IMG/VR virus record: IMGVR_UViG_3300019124_000023
Location: 1-23,852 of that record
Direction: 5' to 3' (one strand)
Origin: a virus
Length of the DNA stretch: 23,852 nt
Shown here: one piece after another, positions 555 through 23,137 of the stretch
How the letters are laid out: each line of letters begins with the position of its first letter
Position numbering within the stretch: the stretch's first letter is position 1
Translations under genes and position numbers: made by a program
Notes under the pieces: generated by a model
What the model saw: the letters and a program-made list of their open reading frames with translations, nothing else
Told to the model about the DNA's origin: nothing
Databases searched by the model: none

Positions 555-1175
555 CTATGCCGCCGCCTTGCGCAGCTGGGCGGTGTACTCGTCCACCCGC
601 GCCGCGAAGACGTGAAGGTCAGCCAGCAGCGCCTCGATGTGGGCGTCATCCCGTGGCACGCGTTGCACCTTCAGCGGCAGGCCCGGGCTGTAGACCACGA
701 GGTCGCACCACTGGCGGCCGGTGATCCACATCAGGCCTTGCATCTGGTCCATGTACTCGGCGGGGTCGTGCTCGATGTACAGCTGGGCCAGCTTGAACGG
801 GTTGGCCGGACACTTGATCTCGATGAGGCCGTCGGCGTCCACGAGGCCATCGGGCGAGCCGCCGAAGCCGTCACGGATGCAGATGCCCACCTCGTCGACA
901 AACGCGCCGGTGCGGGCCTCGTACAGCTGGCGGGCCTCATCCTCCAGTTCGGTGCCGCGCTTCATGGCGGGCGTGACGAAGCGATCGACCATGCTGCCGC
1001 TGACGCGCTCGATGGCCAGTTCGGCCATGTAGTCGAGCTGCGCCTGCGACGGCGCGCCGTTCTTCAGCTTGGCGCGGGCGTCCTTGGCGCGGCTCATCGT
1101 GATGCGGCCGGTGCGCGCGGCGAACCACTCGGGCGAATGCTGCTCGCAGTCGATGACGAGGCAGGGCGTGCTCAT
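555..1175 (-). CDS. YqaJ/lambda-Exo-family recombination exonuclease
   Basis: Predicted 5'-3' double-strand exonuclease of the PD-(D/E)XK superfamily (YqaJ / lambda Red alpha type), which resects DNA ends so that the partner annealing protein can load on single strands. The 206-residue length is typical. Visible motifs in order: HSPEWFAARTGRIT (about residues 13-26), the acidic helix RGTELEDEAR (73-82), GSPDGLV with the metal-binding Asp (106-112), the catalytic IEIKCP (118-123), and the Gln-rich YMDQMQG followed by WITGRQWCDLVVYSP (141-164). The start codon overlaps the stop of the RecT-like gene by four bases (ATGA), matching the usual annealing-protein/exonuclease pairing. The family call is confident; direct biochemical properties are inferred. 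Confidence 0.9.
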   Translation of the reverse strand: MSTPCLVIDCEQHSPEWFAARTGRITMSRAKDARAKLKNGAPSQAQLDYMAELAIERVSGSMVDRFVTPAMKRGTELEDEARQLYEARTGAFVDEVGICIRDGFGGSPDGLVDADGLIEIKCPANPFKLAQLYIEHDPAEYMDQMQGLMWITGRQWCDLVVYSPGLPLKVQRVPRDDAHIEALLADLHVFAARVDEYTAQLRKAAA

Positions 1176-1924
1176 GGCTGCACCTCCCCGCTGTTGGCGT
1201 CCTGCGCGGCGTGCGAGGCAATCGCCTCATCCGCCTCGGTCGCGGTGGCGCGCAGCGCGCGCAGTTCGCCCTTCAGCGCGATGCGGGTCTGCTCGGTCTG
1301 CGCGTCCCACCACTCACGAAGCTTGACGGTGCCTTCGGTGGCCGCGTTGCGCGCCTCGGACAGCTTGGCGTCGAGAACGCCCTGATCCTGCGCTGGCTGC
1401 ACTTCCTCGACGGCGCCCATGATCTTCGGGGCGGCCGGCGCAGGTGCTGGCGCCAGATCCATCGCTTCTTCCGCGATCAGCGCACCGCCGATGGCCGCCG
1501 GGTACACAGCGCGCACGCCCTCGGCGATGCAGCGTGCACGCAGCATGGCGCGCGGGTAGTTCTTCCAGTTGTCCTTGCCCGTCAGGCCGGCTTTCTTGGC
1601 CTGCTCAAAGGTCCAGACCATGCGCAAGCTGCCGCCTTGCGGGTGGCTGAAGGTGGCGTCCGCCGTCTGCTCGTCGAGGCGGTGCCACTCAACCCGGCCG
1701 CCTGCCTGCTGGAAGCGGGCGAGAACGCTGTGCGTCTTGCGGGCGGCGCGGCCCTGAATGACATCGTAATCCTGCGCGACGGTGGCGGGGTGCATGCCCT
1801 CGGCCTGCGCGACCAGCATCAGCGCGATGGCCTGCTCCGGGGTTTTCAGCCCGAACAGGCCGGAGCGCGCGAGTGCGCTGCCCATCTGCTGCAGTTCGTT
1901 GAACGGTACGAGTGCGGTTGTCAT
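1172..1924 (-). CDS. RecT-like single-strand annealing protein (probable)
   Basis: Predicted phage single-strand annealing protein of about 250 residues that would bind single-stranded DNA and pair it with complementary strands during replication and recombination. The start is the ATG at 1924, preceded by a GGGAG ribosome binding site; the longer upstream open frame is Arg/Ser-rich shadow sequence. Recognisable features are MLVAQAEGMHPATVAQDYDV near residues 40-60, then RAARKTHSVLARFQQAGG and the NWKNYPRAMLRARCIAEGVR segment around 120-140, which resembles the conserved C-terminal part of RecT/Bet-like proteins. The tail is Ala/Pro-rich, then helical and acidic. It sits immediately upstream of and overlaps the YqaJ exonuclease gene, which strongly supports the role. 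The sequence is divergent enough that the exact annealing-protein family is uncertain. Confidence 0.68.
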   Translation of the reverse strand: MTTALVPFNELQQMGSALARSGLFGLKTPEQAIALMLVAQAEGMHPATVAQDYDVIQGRAARKTHSVLARFQQAGGRVEWHRLDEQTADATFSHPQGGSLRMVWTFEQAKKAGLTGKDNWKNYPRAMLRARCIAEGVRAVYPAAIGGALIAEEAMDLAPAPAPAAPKIMGAVEEVQPAQDQGVLDAKLSEARNAATEGTVKLREWWDAQTEQTRIALKGELRALRATATEADEAIASHAAQDANSGEVQP

Positions 1925-1937
1925 CGGTGTCTCCCTG

Positions 1938-2261
1938 TCAGTTGAAGGTGCGCGGATCGCAGAACCACGCCTTGATCCGCTGCCACAGCGTCGGCTTCTT
2001 GAACGGCCGCGCCGGGTCGTACATGCGCGCCGGCTCCGCGGGCATCTGGCTGAGTTGCACCGCGCAGTCGCATGTCCGGCCCCGGCCGACCTGGCAGCGG
2101 GTGCAGATCGCGCCATCGCCCAGCAGCGCCCGCAGCACCCAGCCGCGCTCCTGCTCGGTCAGGTCCTGCTGCTGCGTGGCGGCGAAGCTGGCTTCCCGGT
2201 CATTGCGCAGCGGGCGCAGCGCGGCTTCGTGGGTCTTGGCGAAGGGATAGGCGCGTGCCAT
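1938..2261 (-). CDS. Hypothetical early protein with CxxC-type Cys cluster
   Basis: A 107-residue leftward gene. The ATG at 2261 is chosen because GGAGG lies seven bases upstream; the frame extends further but without a binding site. The protein begins MARAYPFAKTHEAALRPLRN and has a four-Cys cluster, ICTRCQVGRGRTCDCA, near residues 52-67 that could bind zinc. It ends in a Lys/Trp-rich segment (KKPTLWQRIKAWFCD) that could be amphipathic. I do not recognise the family. It lies 13 bases before the RecT-like gene, so it is probably cotranscribed with the recombination functions. Confidence 0.65.
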   Translation of the reverse strand: MARAYPFAKTHEAALRPLRNDREASFAATQQQDLTEQERGWVLRALLGDGAICTRCQVGRGRTCDCAVQLSQMPAEPARMYDPARPFKKPTLWQRIKAWFCDPRTFN

Positions 2262-4896: not shown

Positions 4897-5313
4897 ATGA
4901 GCAGGGCTGGTTTCGACTTCCGCCGGCATGGCGGCATGATGGTGGTTGAGGTGTCGGGGCTATTCGGGCCAGCTGAGGCCGCGATTGCTGCCGCCAGGCT
5001 GGGGCGCGAGCTGACCAAGGCGCACGCGGTCAAGGTGCTGTTCGATCTGCGTCGCGCTGTGCTGCTGATGGCCGAGGATGATGGCCCTTTGTTGGCCCAG
5101 CACCTCCGGGATGTCGGCGTACCGGTGGGCCTGCTGGTGGATCCAGCTCAGCGTGCGTTTGCCTGGGGCGTGTGGTCCGAGATGGTCGACGAAGGACGAA
5201 CAGCCGTGCCGTTCCTCAGCCCTGCACGGGCGTCGGAGTGGCTGGCGGTCCCTCCAGAATCTTTGCGATCAACGCGGCTTTTTCTGCCGGTGTCTCAGGT
5301 GGGTGGTCAGTGA
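4897..5313 (+). CDS. Hypothetical SpoIIAA/STAS-like protein
   Basis: A 138-residue protein from the ATG at 4897, or 142 residues from a GTG at 4885; neither has a strong ribosome binding site. The sequence starts GFDFRRHGGMMVVEVSGLFG, continues with an alpha helix, then AVKVLFDLRRAVLLMAEDDG and VPVGLLVDPAQRAFAWGVW. The alternation of strands and helices resembles the SpoIIAA-like/STAS fold seen in many bacterial proteins of unknown role. It is convergent with the repressor gene and its last 98 bases overlap that gene's 3' end. A short CTGTC-TG-GACAG inverted repeat lies at 4866-4877 just upstream. Position between the left and right operators suggests expression in the lysogen, but this is inference. 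Confidence 0.55.
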   Translation: MSRAGFDFRRHGGMMVVEVSGLFGPAEAAIAAARLGRELTKAHAVKVLFDLRRAVLLMAEDDGPLLAQHLRDVGVPVGLLVDPAQRAFAWGVWSEMVDEGRTAVPFLSPARASEWLAVPPESLRSTRLFLPVSQVGGQ

Positions 5314-5656
5314 AAGCGATCGCCTCGCAGATCGCCATGGCCCACCTGAACTGACCGGGCGAGTCGACGCGGCGCTTCTCGAGCGCCATCGCCACCTCGA
5401 GCACCCTCGGGGACAGCTGGGCTTCCGGGGCGCGGCTGTGCCAGTTGTTCGGCAGTCCCCAGTGCTCAGGCCCAACGACGTCCGAAAAGTAGTTGACCAG
5501 CGCGGGGATGTGCTTCTTCGCCACCCGCCCGTAACGCAGCCACTCTGACACAGAGGGTTGGCGCACGCCAAAGGCCGCAGCCACATCGTGCTGCGTCACG
5601 CCCTTCTGTTTCATCGCCTCGCGCAAGGCCGCGCCCAGGCTCTCCCCCATCAGCAT
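5216..5656 (-). CDS. Short XRE-family phage repressor (CI-like)
   Basis: Predicted lysogeny repressor, 146 residues. An N-terminal helix-turn-helix occupies about residues 5-45, with REAMKQKGVTQHDVAAAFG then VRQPSVSEWLRYGR as recognition region. The remaining 100 residues (HWGLPNNWHSRAPEAQLSPR onwards) are helical and contain no Ser-Lys autoproteolysis motif, so it lacks the S24/LexA-like domain of lambda CI and P22 C2. The start at 5656 is preferred over the ATG at 5650 because the best promoter would begin transcription on that A, giving a leaderless message; neither ATG has a ribosome binding site. It is divergent from the Cro-like gene across three operator-like sites. DNA binding is confident; the role is strongly suggested by context. 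Confidence 0.75.
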   Translation of the reverse strand: MLMGESLGAALREAMKQKGVTQHDVAAAFGVRQPSVSEWLRYGRVAKKHIPALVNYFSDVVGPEHWGLPNNWHSRAPEAQLSPRVLEVAMALEKRRVDSPGQFRWAMAICEAIAFTDHPPETPAEKAALIAKILEGPPATPTPVQG

Positions 5657-5662
5657 CTGCGG

Positions 5663-5692
5663 ATTGCAACAGGCGATGCCTGTAATAGGCAA
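5663..5692 (-). promoter_or_regulatory. Repressor promoter (PRM-like)
   Basis: Minus-strand TTGCCT (5692-5687) is followed by an 18-base spacer and TGCAAT (5668-5663). Transcription would start about seven bases further, near 5656, at the A of a repressor ATG, consistent with a leaderless message. The -10 matches only four of six consensus bases, as expected of a promoter that may need activation. Confidence 0.45.
5668..5684. promoter_or_regulatory. Right operator-like site A
   Basis: AACAGGCGATGCCTGTA has ACAGGC and GCCTGT arms around a 3-base centre and matches the operator family core except for one base (GGCGATGCC versus GGCAATGCC). It lies over the -10/spacer of the repressor promoter, so binding would give negative autoregulation. 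Confidence 0.5.
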
Positions 5693-5700
5693 TGCGCTTG
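5684..5700. promoter_or_regulatory. Right operator-like site B (imperfect)
   Basis: AATAGGCAATGCGCTTG retains one good half-site (ATAGGCAATGC) and a poor second half. Its centre is 16 bases from site A and 24 from site C; the 24-base spacing equals that of the two left operators. It overlaps the -35 regions of both divergent promoters. Confidence 0.45.
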
Positions 5701-5726
5701 CGCTTAGCATCGGCATTGCCTATCAT
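5698..5726 (+). promoter_or_regulatory. Rightward early promoter (PR-like), leaderless
   Basis: TTGCGC (5698-5703) is separated by exactly 17 bases from TATCAT (5721-5726). The expected transcription start is around 5733-5734, on the ATG of the Cro-like gene, so that message would be leaderless. Operator site C sits in the spacer and -10. Confidence 0.65.
5708..5724. promoter_or_regulatory. Right operator-like site C
   Basis: CATCGGCATTGCCTATC is the reverse orientation of the left operators; read on the minus strand it matches left operator 1 at 14 of 17 positions with an identical nine-base core. It covers the spacer and -10 of the rightward promoter. Confidence 0.65.
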
Positions 5727-5733
5727 GTACCCC

Positions 5734-6108
5734 ATGAAAGCGATCGAGCGGGCAATCCAAGTCTTCGGCAGCCAAGCGGCAATGGCTTCGGCGCTGGGGA
5801 TCAAGCAACCGACCATCAGTGAGTGGCTGCGCGGCGAGCGCCGGGTGCCGGCCGAACGGTGTCCCGAGATCGAGCGCGAGACGCGCCGCCGCGGGCAGCC
5901 CGTTCTCTGCGAAGAACTGCGCCCGGACGTGGCGTGGGATGTCTTGCGCGAACAGGTGGATGAAGGTGCCGCTGCGCAGCTGCCTGCCAAGCCCAAGAAA
6001 GCCCGGTCTCCAGCGAACGACCACCGCGAGATCCACGGCGTCGGCTCTGAGGCCCGCCATACCGCCTTTGGCGACATCCGCATCGACCGCCGCGAGCGGC
6101 CGGAGTAG
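5734..6108 (+). CDS. YdaS/Cro-like regulator
   Basis: Predicted Cro-equivalent, 124 residues. The first 35 residues (MKAIERAIQVFGSQAAMASA, then LGIKQPTISEWLRGERRVPA) are the helix-turn-helix typical of YdaS/Cro-like proteins, and the RPDVAWDVLRE segment near 63-73 is also characteristic of that family. The Arg/Lys-rich tail is not conserved in my view. Two ATGs are possible, at 5725 and 5734; 5734 matches the predicted start of a leaderless transcript and the usual family N-terminus. It is the first gene of the rightward operon and should compete with the repressor for the intergenic operators. Confidence 0.8.
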   Translation: MKAIERAIQVFGSQAAMASALGIKQPTISEWLRGERRVPAERCPEIERETRRRGQPVLCEELRPDVAWDVLREQVDEGAAAQLPAKPKKARSPANDHREIHGVGSEARHTAFGDIRIDRRERPE

Positions 6109-10971: not shown

Positions 10972-11468
10972 CGAAAGAACGGAAGCCGCGCGGCCAGCCG
11001 CTGACCTACACCAAGGCGGTGGCGGATGACATCTGCGCACGGCTGGCGACCGGGGAGTCGCTGCGAGGCATCTGCCGGGATGAGGGGATGCCGCCGGAGT
11101 CGACGGTCAGAAGGTGGGTGCTGGAGGACCACGACGGCTTCGCAGCGCGTTACGCGCGCGCGCGCGACATGGGGCTCGATTCGCTCGCCGACGAGATCCT
11201 CGAGATCTCCAACACCCCCCAGGTAGGCACGAAGACGGTGAGCAAGGCGACCGGCGTGGAAGTGACCGAGGCCGACATGATCGAGCACCGCCGGCTGCAG
11301 GTGGACGCGCGCAAGTGGTACCTCGCCAAGCTCGCCCCCAAGAAGTACGGCGACAAACTGGCGATCGGTGGCGCCGACGACCTGCCGCCGCTCAAGACGC
11401 TGCCCGACGACCAGCTCGAGGCCAAGATCAAGGCACTGCAGGACAAGCTGAATGCCGACAAGGGCTGA
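10968..11468 (+). CDS. terS: Terminase small subunit
   Basis: Predicted 166-residue DNA-recognition subunit of the packaging terminase. It starts at a GTG overlapping the previous stop (GTGA). Residues 10-50 (LTYTKAVADDICARLATGES, LRGICRDEGMPPESTVRRWV) form the homeodomain-like helix-turn-helix that binds the packaging site. The middle (ARARDMGLDSLADEILEISN) and the RLQVDARKWYLAKLAPKKYG segment give the helical core for ring assembly; the acidic, Lys-rich tail would contact the large subunit. It lies immediately upstream of, and overlaps by 17 bases, the large-subunit gene. The family is common in phages of high-GC proteobacteria and is not the P22 gp3 type. Confidence 0.85.
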   Translation: MTKERKPRGQPLTYTKAVADDICARLATGESLRGICRDEGMPPESTVRRWVLEDHDGFAARYARARDMGLDSLADEILEISNTPQVGTKTVSKATGVEVTEADMIEHRRLQVDARKWYLAKLAPKKYGDKLAIGGADDLPPLKTLPDDQLEAKIKALQDKLNADKG

Positions 11469-12897
11469 ACTCGAAGAACTCGCCCTGCTGCTGGAGGAGA
11501 AGGCGGCGCGGCTGAAGGCGAACCGCTACCGGACGGTGTTCGCCAGCCTGTACGGGTGGCAAGTCGAGTTCATCGCGGCCACGGCGAGCTACTCGCAGTG
11601 CTGCCTGATCGCGGCCAACCGGATCGGGAAGACCTACACCGGCACGTACATCGACGCGATCCATGCGCTGGGCGAGTACCCCGACGACTGGCCGGGCCAC
11701 AAGTTCGAGCATGCCCCGCTGATCTGGTGCCTGGGCTACTCGGGCGAGAAGACGCGCGACCTGCTGCAGACGCCGCTGGTCGGGCGCAAGAACGGCGACA
11801 GCTTCGAGGGCGGCCTGATCCCGGCCGATCGGATCGTCGGCTACGAGTCGATGACCGGCACGCCGAACGCCGTCCGGACGCTGCTGATTCGCCACAAGAG
11901 CGGGGAGGTCGCCCGCATCCAGTTCTGGAGCTACAGCCAAGGGCAGCACGCGCTGATGGGCGACGCGGTCGACTGGTTCCACATCGACGAGGAGCCGCGC
12001 GACCCTGCGATCTACCCACAGGTGCTGGTGCGCACGGCGTCGGGCGACAAGGGCAGGGGCGGCCGCGGCATCCTGACGTTCACGCCGGAGAACGGCCGGA
12101 CCGAGCTGGTGATCCAGTTCATGGACACGCCAGGCCGTGCCCAGTTCTGCATGCAAAAGGGCTGGGACGACGCGCCCCACCTGAACGAGAAGACCAAAGA
12201 GGAGCTGCTGTCGAGCTTCCCGGCGCACCAGCGCGAGATGCGGACCAAGGGCGTCCCGATGCTCGGGCACGGGCGGATCTATGACATCGCCGAGGAGGAC
12301 GTGACCTGTGCGCCGTTCGAGATCCCGCCGCACTTCAAGGTGATCAACGGGATGGACTTTGGCTGGGACCATCCGCAGGCGCAGGTGCAGCTGGCGATCG
12401 ACCTGGACAATGACGCCTACTACGTGACACGAGCCTGGAAGAAGGCGCGGGTAAGCCCCAACGACGCATGGGGTTCGGTGAAGTCGTGGGCGGCGGGTGT
12501 GCCGACCGCCTGGCCGGCGGACGGGCTGCAGACCGAGAAGGGTAGCGCGAAACAGCAGAAGTCCTACTACACCGAAGCCGGGTTCAAGCTGCTGGCCAAC
12601 CACGCGGCCTGGCCCGATGGATCCAACGGCGTCGAGGCGGGGCTGTACGAAATCCGCGACTTGATGCTCAAAGGCAAGTTCAAGATCTTCCGCGGCCTGC
12701 GCGATCTGCTCGACGAGTTCCTGCAGTACCACCGCGACGAGAACGGAAAGATCGTCAAGGTTCGCGACGACGCCCTCGACGCGATGCGCTACGCGTACAT
12801 GATGCGCCGCTTTGCCGTGCCGTTCGGTGAGGTGGGCAAGCCCAAAGCGCCGGCATTCGACCCAATCCCTATAGCCTCGCCGTGGGCTAGGCGTTAG
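11452..12897 (+). CDS. terL: Terminase large subunit
   Basis: Predicted DNA-packaging motor and nuclease, 481 residues, a normal length. The ATPase domain shows the Walker A-like AANRIGKT at residues 54-61 and Walker B WFHIDEE at about 175-181 with the catalytic Glu. The RNase H-like nuclease domain starts with INGMDFGWDHP (298-308, first metal-binding Asp at 302) and ends with RDDALDAMRYAYM around 438-450, carrying the last conserved Asp residues. The start ATG at 11452 lies inside the small-subunit gene. The enzyme translocates DNA through the portal into the prohead and cuts concatemers. All key motifs are present. A 111-base non-coding gap with a repeated element follows. Confidence 0.95.
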   Translation: MPTRAELEELALLLEEKAARLKANRYRTVFASLYGWQVEFIAATASYSQCCLIAANRIGKTYTGTYIDAIHALGEYPDDWPGHKFEHAPLIWCLGYSGEKTRDLLQTPLVGRKNGDSFEGGLIPADRIVGYESMTGTPNAVRTLLIRHKSGEVARIQFWSYSQGQHALMGDAVDWFHIDEEPRDPAIYPQVLVRTASGDKGRGGRGILTFTPENGRTELVIQFMDTPGRAQFCMQKGWDDAPHLNEKTKEELLSSFPAHQREMRTKGVPMLGHGRIYDIAEEDVTCAPFEIPPHFKVINGMDFGWDHPQAQVQLAIDLDNDAYYVTRAWKKARVSPNDAWGSVKSWAAGVPTAWPADGLQTEKGSAKQQKSYYTEAGFKLLANHAAWPDGSNGVEAGLYEIRDLMLKGKFKIFRGLRDLLDEFLQYHRDENGKIVKVRDDALDAMRYAYMMRRFAVPFGEVGKPKAPAFDPIPIASPWARR

Positions 12898-12955
12898 ACT
12901 CCGCGGCGCGGGGCCGCGAGTCGGCGACCGCCCACCTACGACCGGCCCCGCCGGC

Positions 12956-12985
12956 CCGCTGAGTAGCCCGAGCCGCCAGCAGCTC
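12956..12985 (+). repeat. Bipartite late intergenic element, copy 1
   Basis: CCGCTGAG, six variable bases, then GAGCCGCCAGCAGCTC. A second copy with the same spacing lies at 22622-22651. Here the end of the element is 23 bases before the start of the SGNH hydrolase gene. It is preceded by a short GC hairpin (CCGGC / GCCGG) and by a CACCT...CGA...CGGCC stretch also seen at copy 2. Function unknown; a late promoter, activator site or RNA leader are candidates. Confidence 0.6.
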
Positions 12986-13008
12986 ATCCGCAGACAGGAT
13001 GAACTGCC

Positions 13009-14583
13009 ATGCCGACCCTACGCTCTGGCGCCTCCACCACCATCACCCTCCCGGCCGGGTGCTCCGTCGTGTTCGACGGCAACAGCGCCGGCAGCGTCTC
13101 CATCACCTCCGGCCGCCTGGCCGGGCAGGCTCTCTCTGTCGGGGTGGAGGGCGGCAAGCTCGGCCCCTATGACACGACGCAGACGCTGTCGCTGAGCGCA
13201 CAGCGTGACCTGAGCTACATGCTCTACGGCTCCAACGGGCAGCCGCTGGGGATGTGCGAGGGCATGGTGCTGCTGGGAGATAGCCACCTCCAGCTGCAGT
13301 ACAACGATTTCAGCTTCCCCGGGGTGCTCCAGGGCGTGAGCCGCAAGGGCTACATCTACCTGGCCAACATGATGACGGGCAACCGGGTGCGCATCGTGCG
13401 CAACTTCGGCATTTCCGGCCAGCGCACCGACCAGATCCTCGCGCGCGTCCCCCAGCTCATCCCGATGGTGCGCTTCGAGGGCGTGCGGCATGTGGTGCTC
13501 GACGGCGACGCGAACGACATCGCGCAGCTGGGCACCACGGACAGTTTCGGGCGCACGATCACCGCGCAGACCATCATCGCGAACATCATGGCGACGGTCG
13601 ATCAGCTGCGCGCGATCGGCATCGACGGCGAGATCATTCTGCAGACCGGGTTCCCGCGCGCACAGCCAGGCGGCCCGGCAAGCACGGCCATGTCGGCGTC
13701 GGCCATCGCCGCGCACAACGAGGTGAACCGCTGGAAACGGCAGTTCGCTCTGACGGCCACGAAGGTGCGGCTGCTCGACCTGTTCCCGGTGCTGCTGGAC
13801 TACACCAGCCCGACGACCATGTCGCGCTGCCAGCCCAATACAGCGTGGGTCGACAGCGAGGGTCTGCACATCAACTCGTTTCAGGCGACCCTGCAGCTGG
13901 CCCGGCGAACGGCCGCGCTGTTCCAGACGCTTTTCCCGGCGGTGCCCAACATCTTCGGCGGCACCCACTACGACGGGACGAACGGCGACGCGCCGAACCA
14001 GTTCTGGAAGGCGCCGGCCGGCACCTCCGGGGCAGTGGGAACGGGCTTCACCGGCACGATGCCGACGAACACCCGCATCCTGCGTCAGTCGGGCGACAGC
14101 ACAACGACAGGCACGGCCTCGGTCATCACCCGCGAGCAGATGTGCACGGAACTCGGCATTGCCTTCGACGGCGTGCCGGGCACGGTGGCCAAGGTCACGA
14201 TCACCGCAGGCGCGTCGGACGGGAACGCCATCATCGACAACAACTGGAACACGGCACTTCTCGCCTCCACCGCGATCGGCAAGAGCCTGGTGCTCTCTGG
14301 CGAGGTCGGTGCACGCATCACCAGCGGCGGCGCCAACGACACGCTCCAGGGGGTTTACGCCAACATGGTCGGCCAGTCGACAAACGAGCATGTGTTCGAC
14401 GACCTGCGCACCGACAAGTGGACCAGCTGCAAGAGCTTCTTCGCGACGCTGCAGACTGCGCGCCCGTGGCTGGTGACCAGCGGCGAAAGCGGCTTCCGCA
14501 TCAATCCATGCTTCGGCTACCAGCTGAGTGCAGGCGCGACGGCTGACATCTACCTCTCGCAGCCCAGCTGCCCGGCCGTTTAA
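13009..14583 (+). CDS. SGNH/GDSL-type hydrolase, probable virion-associated esterase
   Basis: A 524-residue protein placed between terminase and portal. An N-terminal beta-rich domain (about residues 1-80) precedes an SGNH hydrolase domain with the block I nucleophile in EGMVLLGDSHLQLQ (Ser92), a Gly block in NFGISGQRTDQIL, the block III Asn in VVLDGDANDI (Asn169), and block V VDSEGLHINS (His287). At the usual Asp position three residues before the His there is Glu284, with Asp282 nearby. The C-terminal 190 residues are Thr/Gly/Ser-rich and beta-like, ending in DIYLSQPSCPAV. SGNH enzymes on virions de-esterify surface polysaccharides, so a receptor-degrading or tail-fibre role is likely. No P22-style tailspike signature is seen. 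Confidence 0.72.
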   Translation: MPTLRSGASTTITLPAGCSVVFDGNSAGSVSITSGRLAGQALSVGVEGGKLGPYDTTQTLSLSAQRDLSYMLYGSNGQPLGMCEGMVLLGDSHLQLQYNDFSFPGVLQGVSRKGYIYLANMMTGNRVRIVRNFGISGQRTDQILARVPQLIPMVRFEGVRHVVLDGDANDIAQLGTTDSFGRTITAQTIIANIMATVDQLRAIGIDGEIILQTGFPRAQPGGPASTAMSASAIAAHNEVNRWKRQFALTATKVRLLDLFPVLLDYTSPTTMSRCQPNTAWVDSEGLHINSFQATLQLARRTAALFQTLFPAVPNIFGGTHYDGTNGDAPNQFWKAPAGTSGAVGTGFTGTMPTNTRILRQSGDSTTTGTASVITREQMCTELGIAFDGVPGTVAKVTITAGASDGNAIIDNNWNTALLASTAIGKSLVLSGEVGARITSGGANDTLQGVYANMVGQSTNEHVFDDLRTDKWTSCKSFFATLQTARPWLVTSGESGFRINPCFGYQLSAGATADIYLSQPSCPAV

Positions 14584-22564: not shown

Positions 22565-22600
22565 CAAAACGCCACGTGCGCCGCCGATAATTCGCGCACC

Positions 22601-22622
22601 TCGACGGCCCATTGCGGCCGTC
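22601..22622. repeat. Hairpin preceding late element copy 2
   Basis: GACGGCC and GGCCGTC form a perfect 7-bp stem around CATTGC in the gap before the cupin-like gene, directly before the repeat element. No T run follows, so it is not a typical terminator. A shorter hairpin stands in the equivalent place before copy 1. Confidence 0.5.
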
Positions 22623-22651
22623 CGCTGAGACCGTAGAGCCGCCAGCAGCTC
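22622..22651 (+). repeat. Bipartite late intergenic element, copy 2
   Basis: CCGCTGAG, six bases, then GAGCCGCCAGCAGCTC, identical in both conserved parts and in spacing to the copy at 12956-12985. It ends 27 bases before the ATG of the cupin-like gene, which has its own GGGAGAG binding site. Confidence 0.6.
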
Positions 22652-22678
22652 GCCGCCCCGAAAAGGGAGAGTGCTGCG

Positions 22679-23137
22679 ATGGTCTCAGAACCCGAACTGG
22701 AAACGACACCTGCCAACGTGCCGCAGGTGTTCAAGACAACCCCCTCGAGAGCAGAGATTCTTCGCCTCCAGGCAGCGATGCTTGGCATGGAGCGCGAGGA
22801 GGTGCCCGTCGAGCACACGTTCGGCCCCGGGTTCTACGCGCGCACCATCCACATCAAGGCCGGCACGGTTCTCGTCGGCAAGGTCCACGCCACCGAGCAC
22901 CTGTTTTTCGTGTCGAAAGGGGAGATCGCCCTTGCCACGGAGGACGGCGTGCATCACGTGCGCGCGCCATTCCAGACCGTCGCCCGCCCCGGGCTGAAGC
23001 GCGTAGGCGTTGCGATCACAGACGTTACCTGCACGAACGTCCACATCACGAGCGAAACGGATCTGGCGAAGCTCGAGGCCGAGCTGATCGTGCCGGAAGC
23101 GCTCGAGGCGCCGGCCGCGGTGGAGGCTCTCGCATGA
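22679..23137 (+). CDS. Cupin-like virion protein (unassigned)
   Basis: A 152-residue protein; GGGAGAG precedes the ATG at 22679. After about 40 residues, the middle (FGPGFYARTIHIKAGTVLVG, KVHATEHLFFVSKGEIALAT, then APFQTVARPGLKRVGVAITD) matches the double-strand beta-helix pattern of cupins, with a His-x-x-x-x-His (H88, H93 region) that could hold a metal. The C-terminus is an acidic, Ala-rich helix. Cupin-like small proteins occur among the late genes of several podoviruses; their role is unknown. It is the first gene of the ejection-protein block and overlaps the next gene as ATGA. The fold is a prediction by eye. Confidence 0.6.
   Translation: MVSEPELETTPANVPQVFKTTPSRAEILRLQAAMLGMEREEVPVEHTFGPGFYARTIHIKAGTVLVGKVHATEHLFFVSKGEIALATEDGVHHVRAPFQTVARPGLKRVGVAITDVTCTNVHITSETDLAKLEAELIVPEALEAPAAVEALA

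Follow-up and report, generated by a model that had tools for sequence, protein, structure and literature searches.

Before two late genes of a P22-like phage stands a bipartite repeat of 30 bases, and the question raised by this locus is whether the repeat acts as a promoter or activator site in the DNA, as a processing site, or as part of the leader RNA of the genes behind it. The window, that is, the whole stretch of 23,852 nucleotides that was analysed (IMG/VR record IMGVR_UViG_3300019124_000023), is a fragment of a P22-like phage genome with genes for an Sf6-type small terminase, P22 portal, scaffold, P22 coat, gp4-like and stabilisation proteins. No real match to named phages was returned by megablast of the whole window or by blastn of the leader. 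A pair of HTH genes on opposite strands, one YdaS/P22 Cro-like (5692-6108, plus strand) and one HTH_3 repressor-like (5216-5716, minus strand), suggests a temperate phage. Genes for a YqaJ-like recombinase nuclease and RecT (555-2116, minus strand) and for a Fic/Doc-family protein resembling the Doc toxin of addiction modules (PF02661; 4353-4733) were also noted.

The repeat, its occurrence and the genes behind it

The sequence CCGCTGAG-N6-GAGCCGCCAGCAGCTC occurs exactly at 12956-12985 and 22622-22651, on the plus strand only, and no further copy was found in the window with up to three mismatches. The 3' ends of the two copies lie 23 nt (copy 1) and 27 nt (copy 2) upstream of an ATG. Copy 1 precedes the gene of an SGNH/GDSL hydrolase (PF13472, phrog_6102; 13009..14583, plus strand), located between the large terminase gene terL (11452-12897) and the portal gene, and the first gene 3' of the copy 2 leader encodes a cupin-like short tail fibre/adhesin protein (phrog_12032; 22679..23137, plus strand). 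Upstream of each copy are a GC hairpin (12942-12954; 22603-22622) and a stretch of similar sequence, CACCT..CGA..CGGCC. The positions of the two copies in the earlier note, its distance of 23-27 bases to the gene starts and its hairpin with the adjoining stretch were recovered as given. Its judgement that chance is an unlikely source agrees with the absence of the repeat from 100 dinucleotide shuffles, none being expected by chance. The 30-base box it drew is too short, since in copy 1 the conserved unit extends from about 12940 up to the start codon.

The earlier note had tied its proposal to conservation in related phages, and such conservation was found. The full exact pattern is present in at least 56 IMG/VR contigs, and a shortened pattern, lacking three bases at the start and allowing any spacer, in more than 119. 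Amongst 84,980 species genomes three carry the exact pattern, all Burkholderiales by title (a Comamonadaceae strain, Roseateles aquatilis and Aquabacterium olei), as prophages. In all recurrences the orientation of the invariant CTGAG-N-GAGCCGCCAGCAGCTC to the downstream gene is constant. In total, 105 non-redundant leaders were gathered, and these counts are lower bounds. Amongst 369 sampled genomes of the host class the element was found solely in the Roseateles genome itself, and the exact complement of the 16-mer, as would be offered by a host RNA partner, is absent from all three prophage-bearing host genomes.

With a covariance model, a second copy was recognized in many long records holding only one exact copy, and pairs of copies separated by about 8-12 kb, an arrangement also seen in the window, were found in G001, G002, G003, G007, G008, G009, G010, G014, G015, G023 and G421. 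One copy each is carried by a second group of records, in which a -10 box adjoins the element. Portal, hydroxylase and GNAT relatives yielded additional diverged copies. Examination of the closest relatives, as judged by their portal, hydroxylase, cupin or GNAT proteins, yielded a single degenerate copy, 5' of the cupin-like gene in the uncultivated record MW202867.1, and the element is absent from the isolate phages examined. The more distant hydroxylase relatives (L290-L306) are without the leader. Phage DSL-LC05 (L493) has no room for one, as its cupin-like gene overlaps the preceding gene.

The downstream genes are diverse. They encode portal and SGNH-type proteins, Asp/Asn beta-hydroxylases (PF05118) and DUF2824 acetyltransferases, as well as cupin-like short tail fibres, P22 gp7-like ejection proteins, a phrog_917 virion protein and phrog_21390. 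One leader-bearing phage (L072, 1025-1888) encodes its cupin-like tail protein as a fusion with a SET domain (PF00856). No shared metabolic gene was found behind the leaders, and no ligand is suggested in that way. A P22 portal is encoded in 26 of the 27 carrier records. The exception, the 42-kb record G004 (L468-L470), lacks a P22 portal gene; its head gene set is of another kind, it encodes a phrog_684 virion protein, and its leader stands 5' of the same cupin/ejection block. Because the downstream genes vary and G004 differs in this way, the leader is tied to late blocks and not to one gene or head type. G004 is also a sign that the cupin/ejection block moves between phage types.

The pseudoknot and the hairpin before it

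Compensatory base changes amongst the relatives show that the repeat would fold, as RNA, into an H-type pseudoknot, in which GCUG (S1a) pairs with CAGC (S1b) in the loop of a GAGC/GCUC hairpin (S2). In copy 1 (12958..12985, plus strand) the order is S1a GCUG 12958-12961, a loop of AG and six variable bases 12962-12969, S2a GAGC 12970-12973, CGC 12974-12976, S1b CAGC 12977-12980, A 12981 and S2b GCUC 12982-12985. In copy 2 (22624..22651, plus strand) the same parts are S1a GCUG 22624-22627, AG with six bases 22628-22635, S2a GAGC 22636-22639, CGC 22640-22642, S1b CAGC 22643-22646, A 22647 and S2b GCUC 22648-22651. The general architecture comprises two stems of 4 bp. The first loop consists of AG and, as a rule, 4-9 further nt; S2a is separated from S1b by 2-3 nt, and S1b from S2b in most cases by an A.

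Both copies are supported by pair counts on an alignment of 38 distinct sequences (A8) and by a covariation test of S1. Diverged copies replace the S2 pairing with GCGC/GCGC, AAGC/GCUU, GGGC/GCCC, GGGU/ACCC, GGGU/GCCC, GAGU/ACUC, GCCU/GGGC, UGGC/GCCA or AUGC/GCAU. In A8, 99.7% of cells pair, four of the eight pairs have changes on both sides, and 20 double-change cells stand against 2.6 in shuffles (0/500); pairing collapses in the slid controls. For S1, where ACUG occurs with CAGU as a variant, a dedicated scan with the partner base left open found A opposite CAGU in 115 of 119 matches (17 non-redundant, one apparently coding), the four others looking like chance matches in coding sequence, and G opposite CAGC in 64 of 65 non-redundant copies. 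RNAalifold on a first alignment had returned S2 alone, without covariation, because all of its rows had been fetched with the exact pattern; this uniformity was remedied with relatives fetched by protein and by relaxed patterns. The S1 sequence and the unpaired AG after S1a are nearly invariant, the length of the inner spacer varies among copies, and the distance from pseudoknot to start codon varies little (median 24 nt). A possible resemblance between GCCAGCAGC and the 16S 530 loop was dropped, as this stretch varies in relatives.

The preceding hairpin, P1, is likewise shown by covariation as a predicted feature of most leaders. In the 77 leaders without an adjacent -10 box there are 43 distinct arm pairs (P=2e-13 against shuffles), and in most of these leaders P1 is present and ends at the pseudoknot. 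The P1 of copy 1 (CCGGC/GCCGG; 12942..12954, plus strand) covaries in relatives, and that of copy 2 (22603..22622, plus strand), with GACGGCC at 22603-22609 and GGCCGUC at 22616-22622, was recognized from folds and covariation.

Sigma70-like hexamers were found 5' of most copies in two arrangements. In the first the -10 box ends 6-8 nt before GCUG and P1 is missing; in the second it ends mostly 22-34 nt before GCUG and P1 is present. The usual arrangement is fitted by copy 2, with a -10-like GATAAT (22586..22591, plus strand) 32 nt 5' of the pseudoknot. At copy 1 there is no good promoter at the usual distance. A weak sigma70-like candidate read from the sequence (TAGCCT 12872-12877, 17 nt, TAGACT 12895-12900; 12872..12900, plus strand) overlaps the terL stop codon and lies 57 nt 5' of the pseudoknot, farther than usual; the automatic promoter scan did not pick it, and relatives carry TAGACT or TAAACT at the same gene border. 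Between this weak -10 box and P1, immediately behind the terL stop, an extra strong GC hairpin (GACTCCGCGGC...GCCGCGAGTC; 12897-12922) was noted, which is without a T run and is not seen in the relatives aligned. Because the spacing is variable towards the promoter and tight towards the start codon, the conserved element is best placed in the RNA leader and not in the promoter. That the repeat would be part of a folded 5'-leader RNA, and not a DNA signal, is thus a well supported reading of these alignments.

Pairing at the ribosome site and competing explanations

The 3' strand of the pseudoknot, S1b-A-S2b (CAGCAGCUC), has a second complementary partner around the Shine-Dalgarno sequence and start codon, with which it could form an alternative hairpin, P3. 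In the predicted P3 of copy 1 (12979..13007, plus strand), GCAG 12979-12982 pairs with CUGC 13004-13007 and UCAUCC 12984-12989 with GGAUGA 12997-13002, covering the Shine-Dalgarno AGGA at 12996-12999. In that of copy 2 (22645..22677, plus strand), GCAGC 22645-22649 pairs with GCUGC 22673-22677, and a CCC/GGG pairing holds the Shine-Dalgarno GGGAG at 22665-22669.

In computed energies, which ignore pseudoknot loop terms, opening of the ribosome site costs 15.6 kcal/mol in copy 1 when P3 is allowed and 8.3 when the strand is held in the pseudoknot, the corresponding values for copy 2 being 15.7 and 10.0. Over the 105 leaders the mean cost is 12.4 against 8.0 kcal/mol, an average drop of 4.4 compared with 1.4 for shuffled strands, and it is lower in 98 of the 105. 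Shuffling the strand lowers both the downstream pairing (P=1e-14, S2b part) and the stability of the fold in the same leaders. Complements of GCAGC are found near the start codon in 38% of leaders and 15% of other gene starts (P=5e-6), and P3 extends into S1b in a minority of leaders by a 4-mer test.

The 21 leaders with a changed S2b gave a divided result: their own strand paired their own downstream region better than it did the regions of canonical leaders (16/21, P=0.014), but it had no advantage there over a canonical strand substituted for it (13/21, P=0.26). Matched changes in P3 were seen in some diverged leaders, such as CAACCC/GGGUUG (L288) and GCGGC/GCCGC (L404). Covariation of P3 is less tight than that of the pseudoknot, and parts of P3 could coexist with it. 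Swapping of downstream regions among leaders was useless as a control, because nearly all leaders carry the same strand. Competition between P3 and the pseudoknot, as modelled here, is well supported but not proven.

The element is therefore best read as an RNA switch of translation located where late operons begin, and a P22-like genome usually has two. Probably it forms the core of a cis-acting 5'-leader RNA that would control how the first gene in late transcription units is translated, with two competing folds switching the ribosome site. P1, in most leaders, would be followed by the pseudoknot; when the pseudoknot forms first during transcription, or is held by a bound factor, the ribosome site would be open, and when it is lost, its 3' strand (GCAGCUC) would pair with the Shine-Dalgarno/start region as P3 and close that site. 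We infer this sense of the switch, with the pseudoknot as the open and P3 as the closed state. The factor could be a host or phage protein or a metabolite, or folding kinetics alone might decide between the states. With two copies per genome, the head block and the adhesin/ejection block would have their output set together. The element thus looks like an on/off switch for the production of virion proteins. Of the options in the earlier note, a leader motif co-regulating the SGNH hydrolase and cupin-like genes is the one strengthened here, both pseudoknot stems and the preceding hairpin covarying across phages, while no evidence of a processing site was found.

A bolder proposal is offered tentatively, as one that may well prove too broad: the leaders could represent a new family of phage riboregulators. 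The pseudoknot switch would then respond to a signal that Burkholderiales cells contain when infected, whether a metabolite or a protein of host or phage, and would coordinate the translation of the two late virion blocks in P22-like phages. It would also travel along with the adhesin/ejection cassette, even into a phage whose head is unrelated.

Other explanations were considered. It is unlikely that the pseudoknot is the operator of a repressor protein, of the T4 gp32 or S15 kind, whose binding would stabilise the pseudoknot, block initiation and exert feedback on late protein synthesis, P3 being an ordinary start-site hairpin. The T4 gene 32 pseudoknot, which serves that phage as a translational operator (PMC3014915), is indeed placed similarly, and the near-invariant S1 sequence and unpaired AG are as expected for protein contact. 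However, the downstream genes come from many unrelated families, there would be no explanation of why the pseudoknot strand can pair with the start region, and G004, with its element and ejection block and no P22 portal, makes P22 head proteins unlikely ligands; an operator for those proteins is accordingly disfavoured.

Less probable still is a structured 5' end that stabilises the late mRNA or helps ribosome loading, without switching. Transcripts of one class would start almost at the pseudoknot, given the -10 box 6-8 nt before GCUG, and those of the other class would have P1 close to their 5' end; such generic protection, however, needs neither a near-invariant sequence, nor a tight distance to the start codon, nor a strand complementary to the ribosome site. 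An antitermination RNA like the put RNA of phage HK022, modifying RNA polymerase at the start of late operons, would fit a folded RNA close to the predicted 5' ends of the two long late transcription units in a genome, but it is very improbable, since antitermination requires neither a placement some 24 nt before a start codon, as seen here, nor the overlap with the hairpin at the ribosome site. The late promoter or activator site for a phage regulator, which the earlier note had put first, can hardly be maintained in spite of the nearly exact repeat and the sigma70-like hexamers 5' of most copies, since the compensatory changes track RNA pairing, the inner spacer is variable in length, and the distance to the -10 box ranges from 6 to more than 30 nt and so lacks a fixed spacing to the promoter core.

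Comparison with known systems

The leader is an RNA element without an Rfam family, a paper, or an examined isolate phage that carries it. Rfam 15 gave no match at either window copy (E<=5) or on 16 loci with diverse copies (E<=1), and the exact element, in DNA or RNA letters, was not found in the full-text papers searched. In outline it is like riboswitches of the preQ1 and SAM-II types, in which the last strand of a compact pseudoknot competes with a ribosome-site hairpin. By the measures applied to riboswitches, the leader has a conserved aptamer-like fold in its pseudoknot and P1, and for mutually exclusive pairing of the ribosome site the folding statistics are strong and the covariation mixed. 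It differs from those types in lacking an Rfam match and a shared metabolic gene, and in having few invariant unpaired bases and no obvious ligand pocket.

The rpsO (S15) leader also has a pseudoknot in a translational operator (PMC3014915), whereas the genes behind the present leader are phage virion and accessory genes and not that of a ribosomal protein, again without an Rfam match. The phage-associated candidate motifs manA and wcaG and the repeated STAXI pseudoknots are structured RNAs likewise found by covariation in bacterial, phage or metagenome DNA (PMC2864571), but no Rfam model matched the leader, and STAXI pseudoknots occur in tandem arrays near DNA-handling genes, in contrast to a single pseudoknot directly before a late gene.

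The closest known system is the T4-type operator, the pseudoknot in the gene 32 mRNA of T4, T2 and RB69 by which gp32 regulates its own synthesis, which is also a phage 5'-leader pseudoknot located 5' of the ribosome site for translational control (PMC3014915). The gene 32 pseudoknot lies 67 nt upstream and is followed by an unstructured A+U-rich stretch (PMC3014915), whereas the present one lies about 24 nt from the start codon and is followed by a hairpin holding the Shine-Dalgarno sequence, with no A+U-rich repeats. In addition, the leader precedes many unrelated genes, often twice per genome, and these encode portal, SGNH, hydroxylase, GNAT, cupin-like and ejection proteins and not a single-stranded DNA-binding protein. 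Because spacing, start-site hairpin, downstream genes and copy number all differ, the leader was not placed in the gene 32 operator family. If it is a true switch, late virion gene expression would be set at translation by a shared RNA, and the small two-state fold would be a handy model of RNA switching and a starting point for a ligand search. A 2010 review considered the T4-type gene 32 pseudoknot as perhaps still the only viral pseudoknot in translational autoregulation (PMC3014915); the leaders described here would form a second and far wider set of phage leader pseudoknots, in more than 100 environmental phage contigs, defined by covariation well enough for testing.
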